Shown piece by piece: positions 4,872-48,358 of a stretch of 62,858 nt of DNA. The stretch covers positions 1 through 62,858 of the forward strand of contig CANRLC010000010.1 in NCBI GenBank assembly GCA_947631405.1. The letters are read 5' to 3'. The DNA is from an uncultured Clostridia bacterium (GTDB lineage: Bacteria > Bacillota > Clostridia > Christensenellales > Aristaeellaceae). A program made the translations under genes and the position numbers. Under the pieces are notes generated by a model, which worked only from the letters and a program-made list of their open reading frames with translations, ran no database searches and was not told the DNA's origin. Numbering within the stretch: position 1 is the first letter of the stretch; each line of letters begins with the position of its first letter.

Positions 4872-5895
4872 TGCAGTAGTCATAGAAACGTTAGAACAAA
4901 TGAAAAAGTTCCTGAATGAAAAAGGCGTGCTGGAAATTGTGATCAGAAACCAGAAAAAACAGATCGATACCATTCTAAAGGTTATTATCGACAATCTTCC
5001 GGAAACGCAAGAAAAAGATCTTATTGAAAAAGTCATTCATACGCTCAATGAGAAAGTGCATTTGATTAAACGAAAACTGAAGCTTCTGGGTAATGTGGCA
5101 CAGCTGGAAAAAATCGGAATGCTGCTAAACGGCCTGAACCTGTGCTCTACCTGCGCCGGTTTTGCAACGATGTACGCGAAGCTGGATGCAATGAGCGCAG
5201 AAATCAATCAGCAGCTTTACCAGCTTCAGAAAACAGCAAAGCAGACTCAGGATGTCCAGAATGAATACGAGTTCAATAAAGTGCTTGCAGAGCATACGGA
5301 TATGCTAGACAGCCAGCGCAAGCAGCAGCCTTACTCCGAAGGGAAAATGCGCGAGCTTGTCGATCGAGAGTATAATGTCCTGACGCTTCTGATCAGCTCT
5401 TTTCAAAAGGACATCTCAGGAGATCGAAGCGCATTGATCTTTTCGATCTTTTCTATGCTTGCGATGTTCACCGTGTCCTTGCGCAGTTTTGACGAGCTGT
5501 ATTATTTCAATAATCGTCGGGCGCTGGAAAAAGACGTATGGCATCTGTCTCATGAAAAATGGATGAGCGTATATGACACTTTATCCTCCGAATGGTTTAT
5601 CGAAAAGTTACAGGACTATGGAACGTTTGAAACAACGCTGTCGACGCAGGGCGTTGACGTTTACTACACGAGCCTGCTGGAACAGGTGAACGATTTGAGA
5701 AGCGAAATTGAAGACAATCAGGCGTTGTTGATTGCCATAGGAGACGCCGAGCTTTTCAGGAAATATAAAGAAATGAGCGCGAAGGAAGTTGCGGATTCCA
5801 TTGAGTCGGCGTACAGAGAGGCCGGCCGCGATTTGGATGAGGAGACCGTCACAGCGGCATATCAGAACGCAATGCGGCAGGCGGCGATGGCATAA
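4864..5895 (+). CDS. Unknown coiled-coil protein, cassette gene 3
   Basis: A 343-residue protein of unknown function. The N-terminal 90 residues are long charged helices ([28 protein letters not shown]). They are followed by a short hydrophobic patch ([20 protein letters not shown]) and a coiled coil ([17 protein letters not shown]). A second hydrophobic segment is [15 protein letters not shown], and the C-terminal half is helical and acidic. Two hydrophobic patches joined to coiled coils suggest membrane or large-assembly association. The start ATG at 4864 follows GGAG and overlaps the previous gene by 8 bases; an in-frame ATG upstream lies inside that gene and has no ribosome site. Confidence 0.72.
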
Positions 5896-5906
5896 GGGGA
5901 AAGGCT

Positions 5907-7319
5907 ATGGATATTTCCGTCAAGAATGCTTTTGAGAAGCTCACAAAAGCATGTGAGCGAGTAGACGCTCTCCGGCAAAAACAGAATCATGGATTACCCT
6001 TGAAAGGGCTTCTTGCGGCGGATATTCATGCCTTTATATGTCTGATTTCAAAATCCGGGGCCGAGGAAAGATATAGCTACTTTGATGAAGTGTATCAGGG
6101 AGGAGCCTACCCGCTTTCTGAATTGGATTGCACTGCAGGAGACGACTTGCCCAAAGCGTTTGTCGCTTTGAATCAATTTGATCGCTCTGTACAAAACAAG
6201 GTTGCGGTGCAAACGGCGGGCCTGTTTGTGGTTTTCATTTCCGAATTGGGGAAATCCTATCTGCTCAGCAGATTTGATAAAAAAGACATTGACGCCAAGA
6301 AATACATAGACTATATCCGGTCTTTACAAGCCGCGCTGCCTCGACAGGATGAAAATCACGCCAACGATCATGCAAAGGCCGCAACAGACGCGGCGCCACA
6401 AAAAAAGCCGTCACAGCGGACGGATTTAGCGGCGAGCGAGAACGGCGAAGAGTCCACGGGAAACACACAGGAGGACGTATCGGAAGAAACCTTAGAGGAA
6501 CTGCTGGAAAAGCTGAACGCTTTAATCGGGCTGGCGGGCGTAAAGCAGGAAGTCGCGACGCTAATCAATATGATCAAGATAAAGAAGATTCGCGATTCAC
6601 GCGGGTTGGAAACCGCCAGCGTATCCAAACATCTGGTTTTTCTTGGCAATCCCGGAACAGGGAAAACAACGGTCGCAAGGCTGCTATCCAAGATTTATAA
6701 GCAGCTCGGCGTTCTCGAAAAAGGACAGCTGGTGGAGGTTGACCGCGCAGGTCTGGTTGCCGGATATGTTGGTCAAACAGCGCTTAAGACCAAGGAAAAG
6801 ATCGATGAAGCGATGGGCGGCATCCTGTTTATTGACGAGGCCTATACGCTGGCAAAGGGCGGTTCGGACTTTGGACAGGAAGCCATCGACACGATTCTGA
6901 AAGCGATGGAGGATAATCGGGAGAACTTTGTCGTCATTGTCGCCGGGTATCCAGAGCCAATGGAACAGTTTCTGGGATCAAATCCGGGCCTCAAATCCCG
7001 CTTCAATAAAAACATCATGTTCGATGATTATACTGAGGATGAACTGTTGCATATCCTTCATGCGTTCTGTAAACCGTTCAGCATGAAGCTCAGCGAAGAG
7101 GCAGAGCGCTGCGTCAAGACGTACTTGCACTGGCTCGTCCAAAACAAATCAGAGAATTTTGCAAATGGGCGTGAGATGAGAAATCTGTTTGAATTGGCGC
7201 TCTCAAATCAAGCAAACAGACTGGCCGAAAAAGCGGATATTTCAGACGAAGAGTTAAACGAAATCGCCAAGGAGGATCTTCCCGCATGGGTAGTCCATCC
7301 GCAGAGCAATGAGTCGTAA
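5907..7319 (+). CDS. AAA+ ATPase, CbbX/SpoVK-like
   Basis: A 470-residue ATPase. Residues 1-145 form an unrecognised N-terminal domain, 145-195 a polar low-complexity linker, and 195-460 a CbbX/SpoVK/EccA-type AAA+ module. It opens with [11 protein letters not shown], then Walker [10 protein letters not shown] (247-255), the pore-region GYVGQT (286-291), Walker B ILFIDEAY (306-313) and an arginine-finger region SRF near 365. All catalytic residues appear intact. Relatives remodel protein complexes (Rubisco activase CbbX, type VII secretion EccA). Here it is the last gene of a compact operon, 11 bp after gene 3, so genes 2 and 3 are likely partners or substrates. Confidence 0.85.
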
Positions 7320-7440
7320 TTCTGCGATAACCGGGCATGGAACGCCAAGGGTGTGGCCCGTCCGTAAAGTCTTTGCTTCTAAAATGTGGCAATGAAAACA
7401 AAAGGGAGAAAACCTCTTCTCTTCGCCAACCCCGCGACAA

Positions 7441-7480
7441 AAGCGAGGGCCAAGGCTTTGCACCTTGGCCCCCCGCTTTC
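7441..7480. terminator. Strong hairpin between the cassette and ssrA
   Basis: AAAGCG and CGCTTT enclose GGCCAAGG...CCTTGGCC with a short loop. It lies 75-110 bp past the 3' end of ssrA and about 120 bp past the cassette, and could end transcription from either side. The rest of 7320-7551 holds no gene. Confidence 0.5.
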
Positions 7481-7551
7481 TGCTGACATCAGAGCCGCAC
7501 CAGAGCGGCGAAGCCGCCGCTAAAAAAGTAGGTGTTCGTCCAATGTCCGTT

Positions 7552-7899
7552 TGGTGGAGGTGAGGAGAATCGAACTCCTGTCCGAAAAAGCGACTACCGG
7601 GCTTTCTCCGAGCGCAGTCTGTGATTTAACATTCCCTCTCCCAGACGCCCGCAGACAGGCTTAAGGGTTCAGTAGCTTCATGATGTGGCCCTGCCGCAAA
7701 GCTTAAACAGGGTCATGGCCCGCTTGTTTGACGCCGGCGCCCGGCTAAGCGGGGTCACCGGACCGACGCGCAGCCTAATTAGGCCGCGAAAGCGTATTCG
7801 CTGTTGTCAGTTCAATTGATTTTCCCGTTTTTATCGTGGTACGGGGCCACGGCTCGCTTACCCGGCAACCCACAATCCCGTCGAAACCAGTACACCCCC
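7552..7899 (-). ncRNA. ssrA: tmRNA (transfer-messenger RNA)
   Basis: A 348-nt tmRNA. The 5' end GGGGGUG (7893-7899) pairs with CACCUCC before the encoded ACCA 3' end (7552). The 3' TPsiC arm GGUUCGAUUCUCC and the 5' GUUUCGACGGGAUUGUGGG are clear signatures. The tag reading frame ends ...DNSEYAFAA followed by two in-frame-neighbour stops (UAA UUAG) near 7775-7812. The codon directly before the Asp is ACT, where most tags start with alanine. The gene sits immediately downstream of smpB, so the two partners of trans-translation are linked. Confidence 0.95.
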
Positions 7900-26770: not shown

Positions 26771-27081
26771 GGCGGCGCGCCAGCTCGCCTTTTGATGCAT
26801 CGTTCATTCCTTTACCGCCCGCTTGAAGCGGGCGGGCAGCTTGTCGAAAAACCCATATTCAGCGTCAAAAGCCTTTTTAATTTCAATTCAAAATCCAAGC
26901 AGATATTGAAGGAATTGGATCGCCTTTTCTCCCCCCCTCCGGGGGAGAAAAGCCTTCTTTGACGAGCTTTAATCCCCGCTTCATGCGGGGCTTTTGCGCT
27001 TTTGCGCGTTTTTTCGCGCGCGAAGCCCAAAAAAGCGCGCCGCAGCGCGCGCTTGCACTGGCATTCTTCTGCGGGATATGG
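26771..27081. repeat. Intergenic region with copy D of the dispersed palindromic repeat
   Basis: No gene. 26840-26962 matches the tandem copies at 19.8-20.1 kb: TTGTCGAAAAACCCATA, TTTCAATTCAAAATCCAAGCA, ATATTGAAGGAATTGGATCG, and the hairpin CTTTTCTCCCCCCC...GGGGGAGAAAAG with CTTCTTTGACGAGC. A second hairpin CCCCGC-TTCAT-GCGGGG lies at 26974-26990. The remainder is GC-alternating spacer. Confidence 0.75.
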
Positions 27082-27087
27082 TATAAT
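27082..27087 (+). promoter_or_regulatory. Extended -10 promoter of the dlt-like operon
   Basis: TGGTATAAT has a perfect -10 and an extended TG motif; no well-spaced -35 is seen. It lies about 78 bp upstream of the first operon gene. Confidence 0.6.
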
Positions 27088-27164: not shown

Positions 27165-28700
27165 ATGTCCCTGTCCGCTCTGATCGCTGTCGCCCTCCTT
27201 GGCGCCGGGCTGTATTACCTGTGCCCGCCCAAGGCGCGCTGGGCGCTGCTGCTCGCGGTCAGCTATGCCTTCTACGCCTATTGCGGCCTGTACGCCCTGC
27301 CCTATCTGCTCGCCACGACGGCGAGCACATGGGCGGGCGCGCTGCTGCTCGCGAAGCTGGACGCGCGCCTGTCCGCGCGCCTGTCCGCGGAGCAGATCGC
27401 GCGCGAGGACAAGCGCCGCCTGCGCGCGGCGACAAAGCGGACAAAGCAAGCCCTCCTTTGGGGCGTGCTATCGCTCAATCTGGGGCTGTTGTGCCTCGTC
27501 AAGTACGTCGCGCCCGCGCTGCCGCGCCTGTCGCTGCTCATGCCGCTGGGCATCTCCTTTTACACGTTTCAGTCGATCGCCTACCTGCTGGACGTCTACA
27601 ACGGCAAGCTCGCCCCGCAGCGAAACCCGCTGCGCTACGCGCTGTTCGTCTCCTTCTTCCCGCAGCTGATTCAGGGGCCGATCGCCCGCTACGACCAGCT
27701 CGCAGGTCAGCTCTACGAGCCGCACCGCTTCGATTTCGCCGCGCTGGAGCGCGGCGCGATGCTGATGATCTGGGGCCTGTTTAAGAAGAAGGTCATCGCC
27801 GACCGCGCGCTGCCGCTCGTGGAGGGCGTCTTCTCCCAGCCCGGCGCACACGGCGGCGCGGTGATCGCCGTCGGGGTGCTGTTTTACTCCCTGCAGCAAT
27901 ACGCCGATTTTTCGGGCGGCATCGACCTCGCCGCGGGCATCGCCGAGCTGTTCGGCATCCGCCTCGCGCCGAATTTCAAAAGGCCGTACTTTTCCGTCTC
28001 GCTGGGCGATTTCTGGCGGCGCTGGCACATCAGTCTGGGCAGCTTCATGCGCGATTACGTCTTCTACCCCTTCGCGCTCTGTCGCCCCGTCACGCGCGCG
28101 GCCAAGGCGCTCAAGGCGCGCTTCGGCCCCGCCGTCTCGCGCGCCTTCCCCGCCGCCATGGGCAACGTGCTCGTGTTCCTGCTGGTCGGCGTGTGGCACG
28201 GGGCGACCGCCAATTACGTCCTCTGGGGGCTGTATAACGGCGTGATTCTGGCCGTGAGCGCGTATCTGGAGCCGGCCTATCGCCGCTTCGGCGAAAACCA
28301 CGCCCGGCTCGTCGCCACGCGCGGCTTCCACGCCCTGCGCGTGCTGCGCACGTTTTTGATCGTCAACATCGGCTGGTACTTTGACCGCAGCGCGCGCGCC
28401 TCGCAGGCGCTGACGCTGCTCTGGCACACCGTGGCGCAGCCGCGCCTTAGCGAACTCGCGAGCGGCGCGCTGCTTGGCTTCGGCCTCGATGGGCGGGATT
28501 TCTTCCTGCTCGCCGTCGCCACCGGCCTGCTCTTCGCCATATCGCTGCTGCAGGAGCGCGGCGTCGCCGTGCGCGAGGCGGTCATGGCCCGCCCGCTGCC
28601 CGTGCGCTGGGCGCTGCTGCTGGCGTTCGCGCTGCTGCTGCTCTCCGGCGCCGTCACGGGCGGCGGATACGAGAGCGGCTTCCTCTACGCCGTATTCTAA
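27165..28700 (+). CDS. MBOAT-family O-acyltransferase 1 (DltB/AlgI-like)
   Basis: A 511-residue polytopic membrane acyltransferase. Family hallmarks are PLGISFYTFQSIAYLLDVY, SFFPQLIQGPIARYDQL, the first conserved His (H288) in DFWRRWHISLGSFMRDYVFYP and the catalytic His (H345) in GVWHGATANYVLWGLYNG. In dlt and alginate systems such proteins carry acyl groups across the membrane to a surface polymer. ATG at 27165 is favoured by GGAAGG upstream; an earlier in-frame ATG has no site. First gene of a seven-gene operon with a dedicated SGNH partner directly behind it. Confidence 0.9.
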   Translation: MSLSALIAVALLGAGLYYLCPPKARWALLLAVSYAFYAYCGLYALPYLLATTASTWAGALLLAKLDARLSARLSAEQIAREDKRRLRAATKRTKQALLWGVLSLNLGLLCLVKYVAPALPRLSLLMPLGISFYTFQSIAYLLDVYNGKLAPQRNPLRYALFVSFFPQLIQGPIARYDQLAGQLYEPHRFDFAALERGAMLMIWGLFKKKVIADRALPLVEGVFSQPGAHGGAVIAVGVLFYSLQQYADFSGGIDLAAGIAELFGIRLAPNFKRPYFSVSLGDFWRRWHISLGSFMRDYVFYPFALCRPVTRAAKALKARFGPAVSRAFPAAMGNVLVFLLVGVWHGATANYVLWGLYNGVILAVSAYLEPAYRRFGENHARLVATRGFHALRVLRTFLIVNIGWYFDRSARASQALTLLWHTVAQPRLSELASGALLGFGLDGRDFFLLAVATGLLFAISLLQERGVAVREAVMARPLPVRWALLLAFALLLLSGAVTGGGYESGFLYAVF

Positions 28701-28722
28701 ACCGCACCTCGGAGGTGAAGGC

Positions 28723-30066
28723 ATGAAAGCGACCGCGTGCGCCGTCTTGCGCCTGCTCGGCTTTCTTCTCGCGCTCGCGCTGCTCGTCGCCCTGGCCAAC
28801 ACCGTGCTCGTGCGCATGGACGCGGTCACGGCGATCACGATGCACGAGATGAAGACGCGCAGCGACATCGAGCTGTGCGCCGTCGGCTCCTCCCTCTCGC
28901 AGGATCACTTCAACGCCGCGCTCATCAGCGAGGCGACCGGAAAGCGCGCGTTCTCCGCGTCGGTCAACGCGGCGTCGCTGCAATCGGCCATCGCCGTGAC
29001 GCAGGAGCTGCTGCGCACCAACCGGCCGGAGTGGATCGCGCTGGTGCTGGACACCTACAACCTGAGCACCGCCAAGGAGGACATCTACGCCGAGTGCCGC
29101 CTGATGCCGCACCTGACGGGCCTGCGCACCAAGCTCGATTACTACCTGCGCCTGTGCCGCGCGGACGGGGATTACCTCAACCGCCTGCTGCTCTTTCGCC
29201 CCTTCGGCGTCACGTCGCTGTCCGACGTCGTCAAGAACATCCGCCTGCGCATCGACTCCGAGGCGGCCTTTGCCGACGCCGCGCGGGACATGCCGCCGGA
29301 CGTGACCTACATGGGCTGCGGCTACCTGCGCTACACGACGCCCGCGGGCGTGGAGGATCTGGTACGCCGCCAGCTCATCCGCGAGCCGGATCCCTATGTC
29401 GGCTACAATTATCCGCTCCTGCCGCAGACGCGCGAGATGCTCGGCGACTATTTCGCCCTGTGCGAGGAGGCGGGCGTTCATCTCATGGTCGTGATCGCCC
29501 CGGCGCTGACGGCGCACGCGCTGGCCGAGCCGGACTTTCTGCCCTACGCGGACAACCTCTCCGCCTTCTGCGCGGAGGCGGGCGTGCCCTGCTTCAACTT
29601 CACCTACGCCAAGCCCGAGCTTCTGCCCCACCTCGACGACACGTTCTTCGACCTGCACCACATGAACGCGGACGGCGCGGATCGCTTCAGCGCCGCCTTT
29701 GCCGAGCTGTTTAACCGCTACACCGCTGGCGAGGACGTGAGCGGGCTATTCTACGCCACGCGCTGGGAATACTTCGCCTCCTTGGATTTCATCACCAACG
29801 TGTGGCTGAAGCCCGACGGGGACGGCTTCACGGCGGACTGCAACCGCGGCAGCGAGGTGACGCCGCTCTACCGCTACAGCCTGCTGGACGCCGGCGGGCG
29901 GGAGGAGCTGCTGCTCGACTGGTCTGCGCAAGTACACGTCAGCGTGGCCCTCGCGCCGGGCGAAACGCTGCGCGTGTACGCGATGCCGCAGGGCGGCGCG
30001 CAGGATGAACGCGTGTACTTCGATTATCCCGACGACGACAGTTCCGCCGCCCCGGACGCGGCGTAA
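28723..30066 (+). CDS. Membrane-anchored SGNH-like (DltD/DHHW-type) protein 1
   Basis: A 447-residue protein with an N-terminal membrane anchor (residues 8-30) and an extracellular domain. SGNH-type elements are GSSLSQDHFN (nucleophile-region serines 56-57) and a C-terminal FFDLHHMNADGADRF carrying the Asp/His pair. A beta-rich tail of ~110 residues follows, ending in Asp/Ser-rich sequence. SGNH partners of MBOATs (DltD, AlgJ/X) finish acyl transfer on the outer face. It begins 22 bp after MBOAT 1 with GGAGGTG. The exact family is uncertain. Confidence 0.75.
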   Translation: MKATACAVLRLLGFLLALALLVALANTVLVRMDAVTAITMHEMKTRSDIELCAVGSSLSQDHFNAALISEATGKRAFSASVNAASLQSAIAVTQELLRTNRPEWIALVLDTYNLSTAKEDIYAECRLMPHLTGLRTKLDYYLRLCRADGDYLNRLLLFRPFGVTSLSDVVKNIRLRIDSEAAFADAARDMPPDVTYMGCGYLRYTTPAGVEDLVRRQLIREPDPYVGYNYPLLPQTREMLGDYFALCEEAGVHLMVVIAPALTAHALAEPDFLPYADNLSAFCAEAGVPCFNFTYAKPELLPHLDDTFFDLHHMNADGADRFSAAFAELFNRYTAGEDVSGLFYATRWEYFASLDFITNVWLKPDGDGFTADCNRGSEVTPLYRYSLLDAGGREELLLDWSAQVHVSVALAPGETLRVYAMPQGGAQDERVYFDYPDDDSSAAPDAA

Positions 30067-30076
30067 AGGAGCAAGC

Positions 30077-31603
<1,527 letters not shown>

Positions 31604-31621
31604 CGCGGCGGGAGGAACTGC

Positions 31622-32800
31622 ATGGACAACGAACGCCTCTACGCCCTCGCCCAGCGCTTCGGCACGCCCTGCTTCGTCTTCGACGAGACGGCGCTCGCCG
31701 GGCGCATGCGCCGCGCCCGCGCCCTCGTCGGGGAGCGCGTGCGGCTGTGCTACTCCATCAAGGCGAACCCGTTCCTCATCCCCGCGATGCTGGAGCTGAC
31801 CGATCTGCTCGAGGTGTGCAGCCCCGGCGAGCTGGCCGTGTGCAAGGCGCTTGCCGTACCCGCGGACGCGGTGCTCTTTTCCGGCGTCAACAAGACCGCC
31901 GAGGACGTCGCCCACGCGATGGACGCGGGCGTGACCCGCTTCACGGCGGAGTCGCCCCTGCACGTCGAGCTGCTGCAAAGCGCGGCCGCCGCGCGGGGAA
32001 TCTCCGTGTCCGTGCTGCTGCGGCTGACCGCCGGGACGCAGTTCGGCATGGACGAGGGCGACCTGCTGCGCGCCATCGATCATCGAGGCCTCACGCCGAA
32101 TTTGCGCATCGAAGGGCTGCACTTTTTCGCGGGTACCCAGCGCAAGAAGCTCTCTGAGCAGCGCGAGGAGCTGGCGATGCTCCGCCGCTTCATGGACATG
32201 CTGCGCGCGGAGCACGGCTTTGAGACGCTCAAGCTCGAGTACGGCCCGGGGCTTTACTTCCCCTACTTCGCGAACGAGGACGACGCCGACACCCTCGCGC
32301 CCCTGCGCGAGCTGGCGGATGATTTGAAGCGCATGGCCGAGGCGACCGAGCTGACCGTGGAGATGGGCCGCTTCTTCGTCTCCCCGTGCGGGACGTACCT
32401 CACGCGCGTCGTCGATACGAAGGTGAACCGTGGGCAGGCCTACGCGATCGTGGACGGCGGCATCCATCACGTCAACTATCTGGGCGGGATGATGGGCATG
32501 CGCGCGCCGCGCATCGATCACCTGCACGCCGGGCCGGTCGCCGGCGGCGAGCCGGTGGACACCATGCTCTGCGGCAGCCTCTGCACGACGGCGGACGTGC
32601 TGGTGCGCCGCCTGCCGCTTTCCAATCTCGCGCGCGGGGACGTGCTGGCCTTCCGCGACATCGGCGCGTATTCCGTCACCGAGGCCCCGGCGCTCTTCCT
32701 GAGCCGCGACCTGCCGCGCGTCGTGCTGCTGCGGGAGGACGGCGCGCATCTGGCGCGGGACGCCGTGCGCGCAAGCGACCTCAACACGCCCCGCCTGTAA
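31622..32800 (+). CDS. Type III PLP-dependent decarboxylase (LysA/ornithine decarboxylase-like)
   Basis: A 392-residue fold-type III (alanine-racemase-type barrel) enzyme. The PLP lysine is K47 in CYSIKANP. HFFAGTQ, EYGPGLYFPYF and EMGRFFVSPCGTYL follow, and the C-terminal active-site Cys is in CGSLCTTADVL, followed by GAYS. These mark the diaminopimelate/ornithine/carboxynorspermidine decarboxylase group, and family members such as BtrK decarboxylate amino acids bound to a carrier protein. It is placed between ligase and carrier protein, 18 bp after the ligase, in an operon unrelated to lysine synthesis. I infer that it acts in the same envelope pathway, not as LysA. Confidence 0.85.
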   Translation: MDNERLYALAQRFGTPCFVFDETALAGRMRRARALVGERVRLCYSIKANPFLIPAMLELTDLLEVCSPGELAVCKALAVPADAVLFSGVNKTAEDVAHAMDAGVTRFTAESPLHVELLQSAAAARGISVSVLLRLTAGTQFGMDEGDLLRAIDHRGLTPNLRIEGLHFFAGTQRKKLSEQREELAMLRRFMDMLRAEHGFETLKLEYGPGLYFPYFANEDDADTLAPLRELADDLKRMAEATELTVEMGRFFVSPCGTYLTRVVDTKVNRGQAYAIVDGGIHHVNYLGGMMGMRAPRIDHLHAGPVAGGEPVDTMLCGSLCTTADVLVRRLPLSNLARGDVLAFRDIGAYSVTEAPALFLSRDLPRVVLLREDGAHLARDAVRASDLNTPRL

Positions 32801-32858
32801 ACGCTTTCCCGTCCCACGGCGGACTGACCCAACACAACGACCAAAGGAGTGATCCCCC

Positions 32859-33089
32859 ATGAGAGAAACGATCCTTTCCATCCTGCAGGACATCGCCGAC
32901 GGCGTGGACTTTGAGACCTGCCGCACCCTGATCGACGACGGGCTGCTCTCCTCGCTGGACGTATTGCAGCTCATCGGCGCGCTGAACGACGAATTCGATC
33001 TGTCCATCCCCGCCGCGGAGATCGTGCCGGACAACTTCAACAGCGTGGACGCCATCGAGGCGCTCGTGCGCAGGCTGTCCGACGAGTAA
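32859..33089 (+). CDS. DltC-like acyl/aminoacyl carrier protein
   Basis: A 76-residue acidic four-helix carrier protein. The phosphopantetheine serine is S32 in DDGLLSSLDVLQL. FDLSIPAAEIVPDNFNSVDAIEALV closely follows the DltC pattern rather than fatty acid ACP. It would hold the amino acid loaded by the upstream ligase as a thioester on the cytoplasmic face. Strong AAAGGAG site; between the decarboxylase and MBOAT 2. Confidence 0.92.
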   Translation: MRETILSILQDIADGVDFETCRTLIDDGLLSSLDVLQLIGALNDEFDLSIPAAEIVPDNFNSVDAIEALVRRLSDE

Positions 33090-33137
33090 GCCGCAAAACC
33101 TTCTGCCGCCACATCACTACGACACTAGGGAGCACTT

Positions 33138-34565
33138 ATGATCTTCAATTCCTTTTCCTTTCTTGTCTTCTTTCCGATCGTCACGCTGATCTACTTCCTC
33201 ATCCCGCGCCGCGTGCGCTGGGTCTGGCTGCTGGTCGCCAGCTATTACTTCTACATGAACTGGCACGCCGAATACGCGCTGCTCATGGCCGCCAGCACGA
33301 TCATCACCTATGTGTGCGCGCTGTTCGTCCACCGCGTACAGGAGAAAAAGCGGCGCAAGCTCGTGCTCACGCTGGGCATCGTCGCCAACATCGGCATGCT
33401 CGGCTACTTCAAGTACACGGGCATGCTGCTGGACGTGCTGGGCCGAATCAGCGATTTCTTCGGCCTCGGCTTCACGCCGCCGCGCGTGAGCATCCTGCTG
33501 CCCGTGGGCATCAGCTTCTTCATCTTCCAGGCGCTCGGCTACATGATCGACGTCTACCGCGGCGACATCGAGCCGGAGCGCAATCTGTTCAAGTACGCGC
33601 TGTTCGTCTCGTTCTTCCCGCAGCTCGTCGCTGGCCCGATCGAGCGTTCCAAGAACCTGCTGCGTCAGGTCTCCGAGCCGCACGATCCCGACGCCAAGCG
33701 CATCCGCGACGGACTGCTCATCATGATGCTGGGCTTCTTTGAAAAGATGGTCATCGCCGACCGCGCCGCCGTCTATGTGGACGCGATCTTTTCCAACTGG
33801 GCGCAGGCGTCCGGCTGGCAGATCGCGCTCTCGACGCTCGTCTTCTCCGTTCAGGACTTGGGCGACTTCGGCGGGTACAGCCACATCGCCATCGGCGCGG
33901 CGAAGGTGCTGGGCATGACGCTGATGACCAACTTCCGCCAGCCCTACTTCGCCACCTCCGTGCGCGAGTTTTGGGCGCGCTGGCACATCAGTCTGGCGAC
34001 GTGGTTCCGCGATTACATCTATTTCCCGCTCGGCGGCGGCCGCGTCTCCAAGCCGCGCAAGGCGTTTAACACCATGGTCGTCTACACCGTCAGCGGCCTG
34101 TGGCACGGCGCGGCGCTCAAGTTCGTCTTCTGGGGCATGCTCAACGGCGCGCTGCAGGTGATCGAGAGCTTCTTCCCCAAGCGGGAGCACAAGCATCCCC
34201 GGCTGCATCACGCCAAGAGCCTGCTGTGGACGCTGTTCCTCATCAACATCACCATGCTCATCTTCCGCGCCAATTCCATGCGCGCGGCGCTGGGCATGCT
34301 CTTGCGCATCCCCATGGCGTGGGGCGCGCCCGCCTTGGCCACGGGCTTCTCCGTGGCGCAGGCTGTGGCGCTGAGCGTCTTCATCGTCGTGCTGTTCATC
34401 TTTGAGCTGCTGCACGAGCGCAACATGACCGTCACCGAGCTGACCGACCGCCTGCCCATTCCCGCGCGCAGCCTGCTCTATGCGGCCGCCGTGCTGGTCA
34501 TCGCCGTCTTCGGCATCTGGGGGCCGGGATACAGCGCGCAGGCGTTCATCTACTTCCAGTTTTAA
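33138..34565 (+). CDS. MBOAT-family O-acyltransferase 2 (DltB/AlgI-like)
   Basis: A 475-residue polytopic acyltransferase, closer to the classic DltB/AlgI length. PVGISFFIFQALGYMIDVYRG, FFPQLVAGPIERSKNLL, H283 in EFWARWHISLATWFRDYIYFPLGG and the catalytic H323 in SGLWHGAALKFVFWG are present. It differs clearly from MBOAT 1 (for example LGGG motif, loop lengths), so this is an old duplication or two specificities, not a recent copy. Followed 15 bp later by its own SGNH-type partner. Confidence 0.92.
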   Translation: MIFNSFSFLVFFPIVTLIYFLIPRRVRWVWLLVASYYFYMNWHAEYALLMAASTIITYVCALFVHRVQEKKRRKLVLTLGIVANIGMLGYFKYTGMLLDVLGRISDFFGLGFTPPRVSILLPVGISFFIFQALGYMIDVYRGDIEPERNLFKYALFVSFFPQLVAGPIERSKNLLRQVSEPHDPDAKRIRDGLLIMMLGFFEKMVIADRAAVYVDAIFSNWAQASGWQIALSTLVFSVQDLGDFGGYSHIAIGAAKVLGMTLMTNFRQPYFATSVREFWARWHISLATWFRDYIYFPLGGGRVSKPRKAFNTMVVYTVSGLWHGAALKFVFWGMLNGALQVIESFFPKREHKHPRLHHAKSLLWTLFLINITMLIFRANSMRAALGMLLRIPMAWGAPALATGFSVAQAVALSVFIVVLFIFELLHERNMTVTELTDRLPIPARSLLYAAAVLVIAVFGIWGPGYSAQAFIYFQF

Positions 34566-34580
34566 GGGGGGCGGCAGAGC

Positions 34581-35597
34581 ATGAAAAAGACGTTTGCAGC
34601 CATTGCGATCTTCTGCGTCGCGCTCGCCGTCGGCCTGTTTGCCGCCGACCGCTGGACGCGCCGCGACGACGGCGCGCGCAAGTACGGCCTGTTCTTCGAG
34701 AGCGAGCGCGAGGACGAATTCGACGTCCTGTTTTTCGGCACGAGCCATGTGCTCAACTCCATCTTCCCCATGGAGCTGTACCGCGATTTCGGCATCGCCT
34801 CCTATAACATGGGCAACAATTCCGAGCAGCTCGGCGTCACGGAGCAGGTGATGCGGCTCGCCTTCCAGTATCACAAGCCGAAGGTCGCGCTGATCGACGT
34901 GTTCTACATCGACCGCCGCGACGACCTCGAATGGACATACGGCTATCGGCACATGTTCCTCGACGAGATCCCGCTCTCGCCCGCGAAGGTACGCGCGGTC
35001 ACGAGCACCCTGCCCAAGGATTACTGGGGCGAGTTCTTCGTGCCGTTCACGCTCTATCACGGGCGGTGGGAGGAGCTGCTCACCGGAAACATCATCAAGC
35101 AGGTGGACACCGAGCCTGTGATGATGGGCGCGGAGCCGCGCGTGGGCCGGGAGGTTCCGCAGCCCTACGAGCGCACGCACGAGGCGACGCAGACCGAGCT
35201 GCCCGGCACGCAGCCGCTCATAGACATGGCGAATTTCTGCCGGGAAAACGGCGTGGAGCCGGTGTTCCTGTGCATCCCCTCTCCGGCGACGCAGGAGGAG
35301 CAGATGAACTGCAACAGCGTCTATGCGCTCTCCGAGCAGCTGGGCGTGCCGTTCCTCAACCTGCTGGATACCGATCCGCTCGTGGTCGATTTTGACACGG
35401 ACTGCTACGACACCTTCTCCCACCTCAACCCCGACGGCGCGCGCAAGGTGACGCGCTATATCGGCGCGTGGCTGAGCGAGCATTACGACCTGCCCGACCG
35501 CCGGGAGGACGCCGCCTACGCCGATTGGGGGATGCGTTTGCCCGAGTACGACGCGTACCTTGACGAGCGCTGGGGCGAAATGTCCCTGCTCGACTGA
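34581..35597 (+). CDS. Membrane-anchored SGNH-like (DltD/AlgJ-type) protein 2
   Basis: A 338-residue protein with an N-terminal anchor (residues 4-22). The outer domain starts DVLFFGTSHVLNS (nucleophile S55 within GTSH), has ASYNMGNNSEQLG and KVALIDVFYIDRR, and ends with DTFSHLNPDGARKVTRYIG for the Asp-His pair. These are the elements of SGNH hydrolase-like partners of MBOAT proteins. It is the final gene of the operon; its anchor and order mirror the MBOAT 1 - SGNH 1 pair. Confidence 0.8.
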   Translation: MKKTFAAIAIFCVALAVGLFAADRWTRRDDGARKYGLFFESEREDEFDVLFFGTSHVLNSIFPMELYRDFGIASYNMGNNSEQLGVTEQVMRLAFQYHKPKVALIDVFYIDRRDDLEWTYGYRHMFLDEIPLSPAKVRAVTSTLPKDYWGEFFVPFTLYHGRWEELLTGNIIKQVDTEPVMMGAEPRVGREVPQPYERTHEATQTELPGTQPLIDMANFCRENGVEPVFLCIPSPATQEEQMNCNSVYALSEQLGVPFLNLLDTDPLVVDFDTDCYDTFSHLNPDGARKVTRYIGAWLSEHYDLPDRREDAAYADWGMRLPEYDAYLDERWGEMSLLD

Positions 35598-35628
35598 CGG
35601 CCGCGCCTCAAGAAAGGAGACGGTTCGC

Positions 35629-36882
35629 ATGCCCGAGAGGGTCTTTATCGTCGCCGCCAAGCGCTCGGCGATCGGGCGCTATCTCTGCTCGCTCGCCCAA
35701 GCGGACGCCGACGACGTCTGCGCGCAGGTGATTCGGGGCGGCTTCCCGGAGGCGCTGCTGCGCGATGTGCGCAGCGTGATCGTGGGCAACGTGCTTTCCG
35801 CCGGGTTAGGCCAAGGGCTTGCGCGGCAGATCGCGCTGCGCGCGGGTCTCGACGAGCGCACGATCGCGTATGCGGTGAACATGGTCTGCGGCTCCGGCAT
35901 GCAGGCGATCCGCTGCGCCGCGAACGAGGTGCGGCTGGGCGGCGGGCCTGTGCTCTGCGGCGGCGTGGAGCTGATGTCGCGCGCGCCGTTCGCCGCGCCC
36001 GCGTCGCTGCGCACAGGCCGCAAGCTGGGCGATCTGACGCTCACCGACCTGCTCGTTCACGACGGGCTGACGGACGCCTTCAGCGGCGTTCACATGGGCG
36101 TGACGGCGGAGAACGTCGCCAAGGCGTGCGGTATCACGCGCGAGGAGCAGGACGCCTACGCCACCGAGACGCTGCGGCGCGCGATTGCCGCGGTGGATTC
36201 CGGCATATTCCGGGAGGAGATCGTGCCGGTGCGCGTGCGGGACGCGAAGGGGCGGGAAATCATCTTTGACACGGACGAGCAGCCCAACCGCGCCTCGACG
36301 CCGGAGAAGGTCGCCTCGCTGCGGCCGTCGTTCCTGCCGGACGGCACGGTGACGGCGGCGTCCTCGTCGGGGCTGAACGACGGCGCGGCGTTCCTCGTGC
36401 TGGCCTCGGAAAGCTACTGTGAGGCGCACGGCCTCACGCCGCTCGCGGAGCTGCTCGCGGATACGGCGGTCGGCTGCGACCCGCAAACGATGGGCTTGGG
36501 GCCGTACTACGCCATCCGGCAGCTGCTTACCGATTCGGGCGTGGCGTTTGACGCCATCGACCGCTTTGAGATCAACGAGGCGTTCGCGGCGCAGGCGCTG
36601 GGCTGCTATCGGCTGCTGGCGCGTGAGTATGGCGTCAGCGAGGAGGCGCTGCGCGCGCGCACGAATCTCTACGGCTCCGGCATCGGCCTCGGGCATCCGC
36701 TCGGCGCGACGGGCGCGCGCATCGCGGTCACGCTCGCACACATGCTCGCGCGCGGCGAGTGTTCTCTCGGCGTCGCCTCGCTCTGCATTGGCGGCGGCAT
36801 GGGCGCCGCCCTCTTGGCAGGGCGGGCGGTGCCCGCACCCATCTCCGGCGGGCAGGGCCAGCGCCCATCTCCGAATGAGTGA
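35629..36882 (+). CDS. Thiolase (acetyl-CoA acetyltransferase family)
   Basis: A 417-residue thiolase condensing or cleaving acyl-CoA units. The acyl-carrying Cys is in NMVCGSGMQAI, ELMSRAPF is typical, and the catalytic His/Cys are in NEAFAAQA, GSGIGLGHPLGATGARI and SLCIGGGMGAAL. The C-terminus has about 15 extra Gly/Pro/Gln residues. ATG at 35629 follows GAAAGGAG. It lies 31 bp behind the envelope operon on the same strand; this may be accidental read-through. No other fatty acid or butyrate genes are nearby. Confidence 0.92.
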   Translation: MPERVFIVAAKRSAIGRYLCSLAQADADDVCAQVIRGGFPEALLRDVRSVIVGNVLSAGLGQGLARQIALRAGLDERTIAYAVNMVCGSGMQAIRCAANEVRLGGGPVLCGGVELMSRAPFAAPASLRTGRKLGDLTLTDLLVHDGLTDAFSGVHMGVTAENVAKACGITREEQDAYATETLRRAIAAVDSGIFREEIVPVRVRDAKGREIIFDTDEQPNRASTPEKVASLRPSFLPDGTVTAASSSGLNDGAAFLVLASESYCEAHGLTPLAELLADTAVGCDPQTMGLGPYYAIRQLLTDSGVAFDAIDRFEINEAFAAQALGCYRLLAREYGVSEEALRARTNLYGSGIGLGHPLGATGARIAVTLAHMLARGECSLGVASLCIGGGMGAALLAGRAVPAPISGGQGQRPSPNE

Positions 36883-36948: not shown

Positions 36949-36985
36949 TCAGGACGGCGTGGCCGATGCCATGCCGTCCTTTTGT
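36949..36985. terminator. Terminator between thiolase and metK (convergent)
   Basis: AGGACGGCGTGG pairs imperfectly with GCCATGCCGTCCT, followed by TTTTG; it faces both converging genes. Confidence 0.7.
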
Positions 36986-38223: not shown

Positions 38224-38366
38224 GGAAAAAACCGCGCTGGCGATGCAGCGCGGTCGATCTTCGTTGCCACACCTCATCTGCCGACATTGCTGTCGTAGGA
38301 TTTAGCACCGGGTCTACCGGTTGCCGGGCTTCATCGGGCCTATTCCCTCCGCCGCTCGTGATAAGG
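38224..38366 (-). ncRNA. SAM-I (S-box) riboswitch with terminator upstream of metK
   Basis: On the minus strand the aptamer starts CCTTATC (38360-38366) and closes with GATGAGG (38272-38278). It contains the S-box signatures GAGCGGCGGAGGGA, GGCCCGATGAAGCCCGGCAACC (in part) and GGTGCTAAATCC. A terminator hairpin ACCGCGCTG-CATCGC-CAGCGCGGT plus T-run (38224-38255) follows. SAM binding favours the terminator. Confidence 0.95.
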
Positions 38367-38427
38367 CTTTATATGCGGTTGTGTGGATAGGATACCAGCT
38401 TTTCGCGCGTCTGTCAAGCCCTTGCGC

Positions 38428-48084: not shown

Positions 48085-48358
48085 CCCCTGTTGGGAAAAG
48101 ACGATGATGGGAACAAATCGACGGATCCCCTCCGCTCAGAGAGGCGGCGCTCGGTGCGAGCCGCCCGGAGGCCGTTTGAAAGCTCCTCCCGGAGTCGCGC
48201 GGGCGAACGGCAGTAGTCCGCGACGGTTGACCCCGTGAACGGTCGGGCCTTGTTTGAGGCCGCGAGGGCTGCGCAAGCAGCCGAAATAGGGTGGTACCGC
48301 GCTGAAACCATGCGCCCCTATGCCGCAATGCCGCGGCTGGGGGTTGTTTTTTACCCCC
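48085..48358 (+). ncRNA. T-box leader of leuA
   Basis: Signatures in order: GACGATGATGGGAACA at the base of stem I, the AGAGAGGCGGCGCTCGGTGCGAG region (AG bulge and distal loop, given in part), the stem II AGTAG...GACGG element, then the T-box AGGGTGGTACCGCG (48287-48302). A terminator CCCC...GCCGC...GCGGC...GGGG with T-run (48311-48354) follows. Uncharged tRNA would stabilise the antiterminator. A leucine specifier is expected from the gene; CTC at 48183-48185 is a candidate I could not confirm. Confidence 0.93.

Follow-up and report, generated by a model that had tools for sequence, protein, structure and literature searches.

The closest described relatives of the gene cluster reported here are the D-alanylation system DltABCDX, the butirosin proteins BtrK and BtrI, the vicenistatin proteins VinN, VinL and VinO, the acyltransferase pair PatA-PatB, and the exosortase-A triad TIGR03098/TIGR03099. 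The cluster lies in a stretch of 62,858 nucleotides from an uncultured Clostridia bacterium of the Aristaeellaceae (contig CANRLC010000010.1, assembly GCA_947631405.1), which is called the window in the following. It comprises genes for a membrane-bound O-acyltransferase (MBOAT; MB1), an SGNH-type transferase (SG1), an amino-acid ligase (LIG), a pyridoxal phosphate (PLP) dependent decarboxylase (DEC), a carrier protein (ACP), and a second MBOAT-SGNH pair (MB2 and SG2). We consider it rather probable that the first five genes form a cassette that decorates an envelope polymer with an amino acid decarboxylated on ACP, and that MB2-SG2 is separate from it.

With DltABCDX the cassette has in common a ligase, a carrier, a DltB-like MBOAT and an SGNH-type transferase, and a shared chemistry of an acyl-tyrosine shuttle is to be expected. 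However, its ligase pocket is not of the D-Ala type, it has an additional decarboxylase, and the shuttle hexapeptide is part of the MBOAT instead of DltX. BtrK, the closest solved match of DEC, is likewise a type III PLP enzyme that decarboxylates a carrier-bound amino acid, but the Btr proteins feed an antibiotic and not the envelope, and a loop of about 15 residues in BtrK is missing from DEC. The loading enzyme of the Btr pathway is an ATP-grasp protein. VinN, VinL and VinO also combine an adenylation enzyme, a stand-alone ACP and a subsequent PLP-dependent decarboxylation (PMC11284099; VinO and DEC were compared by role only), and the cited section describes that VinN loads 3-methylaspartate as a beta-amino acid onto the stand-alone ACP; in contrast to the cassette, the product is a polyketide starter unit, that of vicenistatin, and LIG has a loop of normal length. 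PatA-PatB resembles the cassette in that an MBOAT with a C-terminal FxYxxF motif has an SGNH partner, but it uses acyl-CoA and, in the account given in the cited part of PMC12148441, no carrier, whereas the cassette contains a ligase and a carrier. In the exosortase-A triad a ligase, a decarboxylase and a carrier are encoded side by side.

A conserved cassette of five genes

The gene order was followed across a collection of named genomes with DEC as the sole query; 435 stretches contained a relative, and the best 80 were analysed. LIG adjoins DEC in 66 of the 70 loci with enough upstream DNA, and the carrier adjoins in 71 of 79. Of the 43 loci with enough DNA on both sides, 34 encode a same-strand MBOAT at a distance of up to 6 kb, and 38 encode one on either strand within 8 kb. 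According to their record titles, the loci belong to Clostridia, Lachnospiraceae, Oscillospiraceae, Erysipelotrichaceae and Coriobacteriia, many of them from gut or rumen, and named cultured strains such as Gemmiger formicilis, Eubacterium ramulus and Butyrivibrio are among the carriers of the cassette. The first five genes co-occur in three classes, Clostridia, Erysipelotrichia and Coriobacteriia, and this recurrence indicates that the cassette is more than a product of chance. The conserved unit thus consists of MBOAT, SGNH, LIG, DEC and ACP. The initial annotation had proposed to look in other genomes for the order of ligase, type III decarboxylase, carrier and two MBOATs; ligase, decarboxylase, carrier and one MBOAT-SGNH pair turned out to be conserved, while the second pair fell outside the unit. 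The same annotation had considered that the decarboxylase might be a chance neighbour, which is at variance with its conserved place beside LIG and the carrier.

A search of 150 relatives revealed DEC in 26 of 29 genus genomes, including the window's own (53-72% identity in the others), once in a genome from another family of the same order (40%), and otherwise only matches of 29-33%. LIG is located beside DEC in all 26 congeneric loci, the carrier was found in 21, and MB1 lies upstream in 17; seven of the nine loci without MB1 are at contig ends, and two (L038 and L052) are not. In the phylum as a whole DEC is rare: with a threshold of E 1e-70 it was detected in four of 398 genomes sampled, one of which is that of the window.

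The ligase pocket

LIG passes the cut-off for amino-acid adenylation domains, and no other model passes among the best 25 of 103 NCBIfam models. Its pocket was placed by alignment to LgrA and to a near-DltA protein, in GrsA numbering. The residues D201, V202, K205, V244, L271, S273, L297, C305, N306 and K490 correspond to GrsA positions 235-236-239-278-299-301-322-330-331-517 and give the code D-V-K-V-L-S-L-C-N-K. In 74 aligned LIG sequences, which were picked through DEC, no variation occurs at the residues D, V, K, S, C and N where they are aligned (72 to 74 of 74, the rest being gaps) and position 322 is L or V, so that the consensus reads DVKxxS[LV]CNK. The near-DltA reference, which scores 544.7 bits against a DltA cut-off of 559.85, has the pocket DLLILCLVAK.

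For DltA of B. cereus, the cited section of PMC11253843 names L198, C269 and V301 as contacts of D-Ala. These are V202, S273 and C305 in LIG, and this difference supports a decoration other than D-alanine, as the initial annotation had supposed. An ordinary dlt operon for D-alanine, with the decarboxylase as a chance neighbour, could explain why DltA models detect LIG (270.7 bits against a cut-off of 559.85, and 278.1 against 476) and why a DltB model gives 162-164 bits, but all these scores are under the cut-offs. No ligase over the DltA cut-off was found in any of 60 genomes searched, the own one included. The altered D-Ala contacts, the decarboxylase that is kept in place and the shuttle motif on the MBOAT speak against a plain dlt operon as well, and this candidate was rejected as extremely improbable on the basis of pocket, cut-offs and decarboxylase conservation.

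The invariant pocket lysine, together with the lack of any acidic code residue beyond D201, argues for an acidic substrate of LIG. Lysine at position 239 is found in Glu-activating domains. Some pocket traits are reminiscent of the beta-amino-acid ligase VinN, for which the cited section of PMC11253843 reports that D235 is kept, that positions 236 and 301 are occupied by F and S, and that a loop is one residue shorter; an engineered beta-Phe domain carries A236V (PMC11253843, same section). LIG has kept D235 (D201), has a valine at 236 (V202) that is larger than the alanine of GrsA, and has a serine at 301 (S273). The resemblance is a weak argument, as the residues of DltA at these positions exceed those of GrsA in size as well.

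The decarboxylase

The best match of DEC in the PDB is BtrK (1e-31), which acts on glutamyl-BtrI, that is, on carrier-bound Glu (cited section of PMC7857480). All 82 DEC sequences have Cys-Thr or Cys-Ser at a place where all five LysA rows have Cys-Glu. Cys-Thr is also present in BtrK, in two exosortase-type rows and in a Streptomyces homolog next to a carrier. In the window's DEC the CT follows a conserved Gly-x-x, and the lysA model gives 173.7 bits against a cut-off of 297.9. In the phylogenetic tree, DEC forms a clade (100/100) separate from the LysA clade (100/99), and whether it branches with BtrK (73/79) or with the exosortase types is not resolved; long-branch warnings were issued for the genome's own LysA, the Paracoccus sequence and L063. 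The loop of about 15 residues is missing from seven of seven DEC rows and kept in the other types, including three LysA rows. When all rows were matched by pattern, the short loop was found in 71 of 75 and a long match in four, while seven of the 82 rows remained unmatched. DEC is therefore BtrK-like and not LysA-like by signature, tree clade and best solved match, in line with the type assigned by the initial annotation. A function as a second LysA was rejected on account of the CE/CT signature and of a separate LysA-type gene of the window's genome (G000:C2).

A related alternative is that LIG activates the L-centre of meso-diaminopimelate, and that DEC then generates lysyl-ACP by decarboxylation of the D-centre on the carrier. 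DEC and LysA share a superfamily, as the sub-threshold score of the lysA model illustrates, and an alpha-activation would be compatible with D235 and the normal loop length. However, DEC has neither the CE of the LysA rows nor the RPxxY that three of the five have, and free lysine could be loaded directly, so that we regard this route as very improbable. An action of DEC on an ACP-bound amino acid, like that of BtrK, is favoured by similarity and analogy.

Probable loading before decarboxylation

A second search of the order was performed with LIG only and was thus independent of DEC. It retrieved 16 loci in 16 of 247 genomes, all with a carrier, 15 with an MBOAT (split over two frames in L217) and 14 with an SGNH-type frame; the strict FxYxxF motif is present in 13 of these 15 MBOATs, and the tyrosine in all of them. 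The pocket D[VI]K..SLCNK occurs in six of the loci, four of which contain DEC (the window, L063, L216 and L218). In the other two, L217 and L194, a GNAT-like protein of about 290 residues takes the place of DEC between ligase and carrier (5856-6728 (-) of the original L217 stretch and 6959-7834 (+) of L194). None of the ten loci with other pockets contains DEC in the stretch examined, and the association of pocket and DEC has a Fisher p of 0.008, in a small sample and with kinship ignored. One of the two GNAT genomes, which is 74% complete, yielded only a 25-bit match to DEC; the other was not searched. The other pockets are DAKC[AC]GLGMK in five loci (L219, L221, L223, L227 and L228), DNLF[FL]CMDVK in four loci with a second ligase in each (L193, L222, L224 and L225), IAKLFSLTNK in L226 and AGRIHGGCSK in L195. 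These loci are sets of carrier, ligase and MBOAT, most with an SGNH-type protein, and each MBOAT has a C-terminal tyrosine.

The occurrence of ligases with the same pocket but without DEC argues against a need of LIG for a decarboxylated substrate, and this favours loading as the first step. In the reverse order, DEC would act on the free amino acid and LIG would load the amine product, such as beta-alanine or gamma-aminobutyric acid (GABA). This order would need the identical gene set, it is common for type III decarboxylases to use free amino acids (cited section of PMC7857480), and incednine biosynthesis offers a precedent, in that the amino acid is processed in its free form by a PLP decarboxylase and is loaded afterwards (cited section of PMC11284099). 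Against it stand, in addition to the GNAT loci, the invariant pocket lysine, which would suit a substrate that still holds its second carboxylate, the use of BtrI-bound Glu by BtrK (PMC7857480), and vicenistatin biosynthesis, in which, following the cited passage of PMC11284099, VinN accepts 3-methylaspartate and not its decarboxylated acid, and the thioester is formed before VinO decarboxylates. Decarboxylation first is thus unlikely. Decarboxylation on the carrier, one of the two orders put forward in the initial annotation, appears to be the favoured order, in view of the BtrK-like sequence of DEC and its conserved place beside ligase and carrier.

Export and a proposed built-in shuttle

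Both MBOATs of the window end in an FxYxxF hexapeptide (Table 1). The strict motif is present at the C-terminus of 65 of 78 MBOATs and its tyrosine in 77, the exception being a broken frame. The conserved histidine of the family is present, as in the PatA-type acyl shuttle, and among solved structures the MBOAT profile retrieved no relatives at E 0.001 except DltB entries. In PatA the acylated tyrosine is part of a C-terminal FxYxxF, while in the Dlt system this tyrosine sits on DltX (cited section of PMC12148441). In the loci analysed here, a carrier occurs together with a shuttle motif fused to the MBOAT C-terminus, which would make DltX dispensable. This would explain why the initial annotation had found no DltX-like peptide at the locus; there is no room for one between the cassette genes (a statement that covers the locus and not the remainder of the genome). 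The lack of a carrier in the other MBOAT-SGNH pathways is evidently due to their use of acyl-CoA.

The partners SG1 and SG2 have no Pfam match at E 0.001, and profile searches of the PDB with both alignments gave chance-level matches only and thus no support for an SGNH identity. However, residues of the catalytic type, G, S, D and H, are invariant in 24 of 24 SG1 rows and seven of seven SG2 rows (the SG1 alignment reference began three codons upstream of the start used here), and some relatives show weak GDSL/ALGX matches. SG1 and SG2 are taken as SGNH-type proteins on the basis of these residues, the matches of the relatives and the position beside an MBOAT. The gene identities given in the initial annotation therefore stand by Pfam for the MBOATs, ligase, decarboxylase and carrier, and for the SGNH proteins by catalytic-type residues and position only.

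The second MBOAT-SGNH pair

The initial annotation had assigned both MBOAT-SGNH pairs to one pathway. In none of the 26 congeneric loci does MB2 or SG2 follow the carrier, within the downstream DNA available. An MB2 ortholog (59-75% identical) is present in 26 of the 28 other genus genomes, on contigs other than that of DEC. SG2 comes next in 25 of the 27 MB2 loci, and in six the thiolase follows as well; ACP or DEC was found beside MB2 in none of the 27, within flanks of up to 1.5 kb (one locus had no upstream flank, and one had about 0.8 kb). In the MBOAT tree MB2 belongs to a clade of 12 rows (99/98), in which only the window's own MB2 is within 1.7 kb of a cassette on the same strand; one row of the tree, L170, is a wrong-strand translation and thus junk. 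On the basis of this distribution, the view of the seven genes as one conserved unit was rejected. The layout in the window looks like two joined units, with MB2-SG2 as a separate, genus-wide one, which is probably an O-acetylation pair fed by coenzyme A.

A single pathway of all seven genes, with both pairs exporting one and the same acyl group to either one polymer or two, would account for the short gaps and for the absence of a terminator-like site between ACP and MB2. At least two same-strand MBOATs also occur near the cassette in seven of 43 DEC-selected loci, among them four loci of the Olsenella type, in which MB1-type MBOATs flank the cassette on both sides. While these examples are in favour of two pairs in general, the Olsenella copies are of the MB1 type; moreover, the orthologs of MB2 are on other contigs, and its clade is otherwise devoid of cassette-near MBOATs. 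The assumption of two export pairs in one pathway is thus less supported, and we judge the single pathway to be quite unlikely, even more so than decarboxylation first.

A second carrier-fed pair is nevertheless possible in the window's genome. An MB1-type paralog with its own SGNH gene is encoded on contig 3 (L065 9934-13024). Relatives of this pair in genome G018 (MBOAT 72%, SGNH 52%) lie directly upstream of LIG (L196 4482-8858). The contig end with this LIG shares 17 identical residues with a LIG fragment that precedes DEC and ACP elsewhere in G018, and the two contigs therefore probably represent one operon. The contig 3 pair is a better candidate for a second carrier-fed pair than MB2-SG2.

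Proposed pathway

In the pathway that we infer, including substrate, order of steps, product, acceptor and the role of MB2-SG2, LIG would adenylate an amino acid of the acidic type (probably Asp or Glu, at the side-chain carboxylate) and load it onto ACP. DEC would then strip the alpha-carboxylate on the carrier, as BtrK and VinO do, which would give beta-alanyl-ACP or GABA-ACP. MB1 would then move the acyl group through the membrane and place it on the tyrosine in the hexapeptide at its C-terminus, from where SG1 would pass it on to a hydroxyl group on a polymer outside the cell.

Several observations weigh against this pathway. The beta13-beta14 loop of LIG is not one residue shorter, in contrast to VinN-type ligases, and V236 and S301 are no bulkier than Leu and Cys of the DltA reference, so that the pocket is a weak argument for a beta-amino acid. 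Ordinary ligases for alpha-activated Glu can likewise have a basic residue at position 239, and an alpha-thioester would make alpha-decarboxylation impossible. Two ligases with the same pocket are accompanied by the GNAT-like protein instead of DEC. About 24 of the 80 DEC-selected loci are from the window's genus, and the loci are therefore not independent; among them, LIG is missing from four of 70 and ACP from eight of 79, and nine of 43 have no same-strand MBOAT nearby. In addition, no recurrent neighbour names the acceptor, as no family was present in more than eight of 64 loci (45 clusters shown, unannotated), and the one sulfatase-fold gene that was detected in the genome scores 157.6 bits for phosphoglycerol transferase I and 31.7 bits for LtaS, both under the cut-off.

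In one conserved cassette, Dlt-like loading, BtrK/VinO-like decarboxylation on the carrier and a PatA-like built-in shuttle would be combined; the parts are known, and the combination is apparently undescribed. In the open-licence literature no related paper was found that joins MBOAT, decarboxylase, carrier and DltA, or D-alanylation and a PLP decarboxylase, and a search for pocket codes found none of them among the matches listed. It is conceivable, if somewhat doubtful, that the cassette belongs to a broad class of envelope acylation systems in which a carrier feeds an MBOAT-SGNH pair and the shuttle tyrosine lies in the MBOAT, with ligase pockets that differ between lineages and remodelling on the carrier by decarboxylation or a GNAT protein. 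The window would then represent a decarboxylating branch (beta-alanyl or GABA) that is common to commensal Clostridia, Erysipelotrichia and Coriobacteriia.

If the proposed pathway is true, envelopes bear amino-acyl esters beyond those of D-alanine and glycine, and a carrier chemistry known from antibiotics is joined to cell-wall export. The loci look like exceptions to the carrier-free rule that the cited part of PMC12148441 gives for MBOAT-SGNH pathways other than Dlt. A positively charged surface tag would be expected to affect the sensitivity to cationic peptides of the host. The presence of the cassette in cultured strains makes these predictions directly testable.

Relation to the exosortase-A triad

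The window's LIG scores 232.7 bits with TIGR03098 (cut-off 592.35) and its DEC 182.7 bits with TIGR03099 (cut-off 478.45). Triads on two alphaproteobacterial plasmids, of Paracoccus and Sinorhizobium (L149 6169-9215 and L150 6316-9445) are located near sugar, glycosyltransferase and polysaccharide genes, and no MBOAT is annotated in these stretches (one Paracoccus "lipase" gene was not examined). The exosortase-type ligases have the shorter, VinN-like loop, and among stand-alone proteins of known structure VinN is the one that the Sinorhizobium ligase matches best. Membership of LIG and DEC in the exosortase-A families was rejected, as both are under the cut-offs and the ligase pocket and loop are different. 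In a Roseburia locus (L096 6344-10227), where the stretch yielded no MBOAT, the genes for ligase and decarboxylase are preceded by one for an acyltransferase-3 protein.

Gene calls and other features of the window

The seven genes are open frames on the plus strand with intergenic gaps of 22, 10, 18, 58, 48 and 15 bp (Table 1), which confirms the order and the spacing reported in the initial annotation. Pfam matches were obtained for both MBOATs, for the ligase (AMP-binding and AMP-binding_C), the decarboxylase (Orn_Arg_deC_N and Orn_DAP_Arg_deC) and the carrier (PP-binding).

Table 1. Positions of genes and signals at the cassette locus, numbered from the first nucleotide of the window
Feature	Position	Strand	Remarks
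Promoter-like site, TG before -10	27058..27087	+	consensus match only; 2 sites found vs 1.0 expected in shuffles, weak
MB1, DltB-like MBOAT, 511 aa	27165..28700	+	WHG at 344; C-terminal acyl-shuttle hexapeptide FLYAVF
SG1, SGNH-type transferase, 447 aa	28723..30066	+	invariant G, S, D, H
LIG, amino-acid adenylating ligase, 508 aa	30077..31603	+	
DEC, type III (alanine-racemase fold) PLP decarboxylase, 392 aa	31622..32800	+	BtrK-like
ACP, carrier protein, 76 aa	32859..33089	+	phosphopantetheine serine expected in LSSLD
MB2, second MBOAT, 475 aa	33138..34565	+	C-terminal FIYFQF
SG2, SGNH-type partner of MB2, 338 aa	34581..35597	+	
Thiolase (acetyl-CoA C-acyltransferase), eighth gene	35629..36882	+	31 bp after SG2
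Terminator-like hairpin after thiolase, 13 pairs	36951..36980	+	consensus match; 20 such sites in region vs 6.9 expected

Two long open frames run antisense to the cassette, at 31457-33112 (-) with 551 aa and at 33117-35660 (-) with 847 aa. They were not accepted as genes, because such frames are expected in coding DNA of high GC content. Elsewhere in the window, a tmRNA is encoded at 7552-7899 (-), a SAM riboswitch at 38271-38367 (-) is located directly upstream of a minus-strand gene for an S-adenosylmethionine synthetase-like protein, and a T-box leader is present at 48095-48322 (+).

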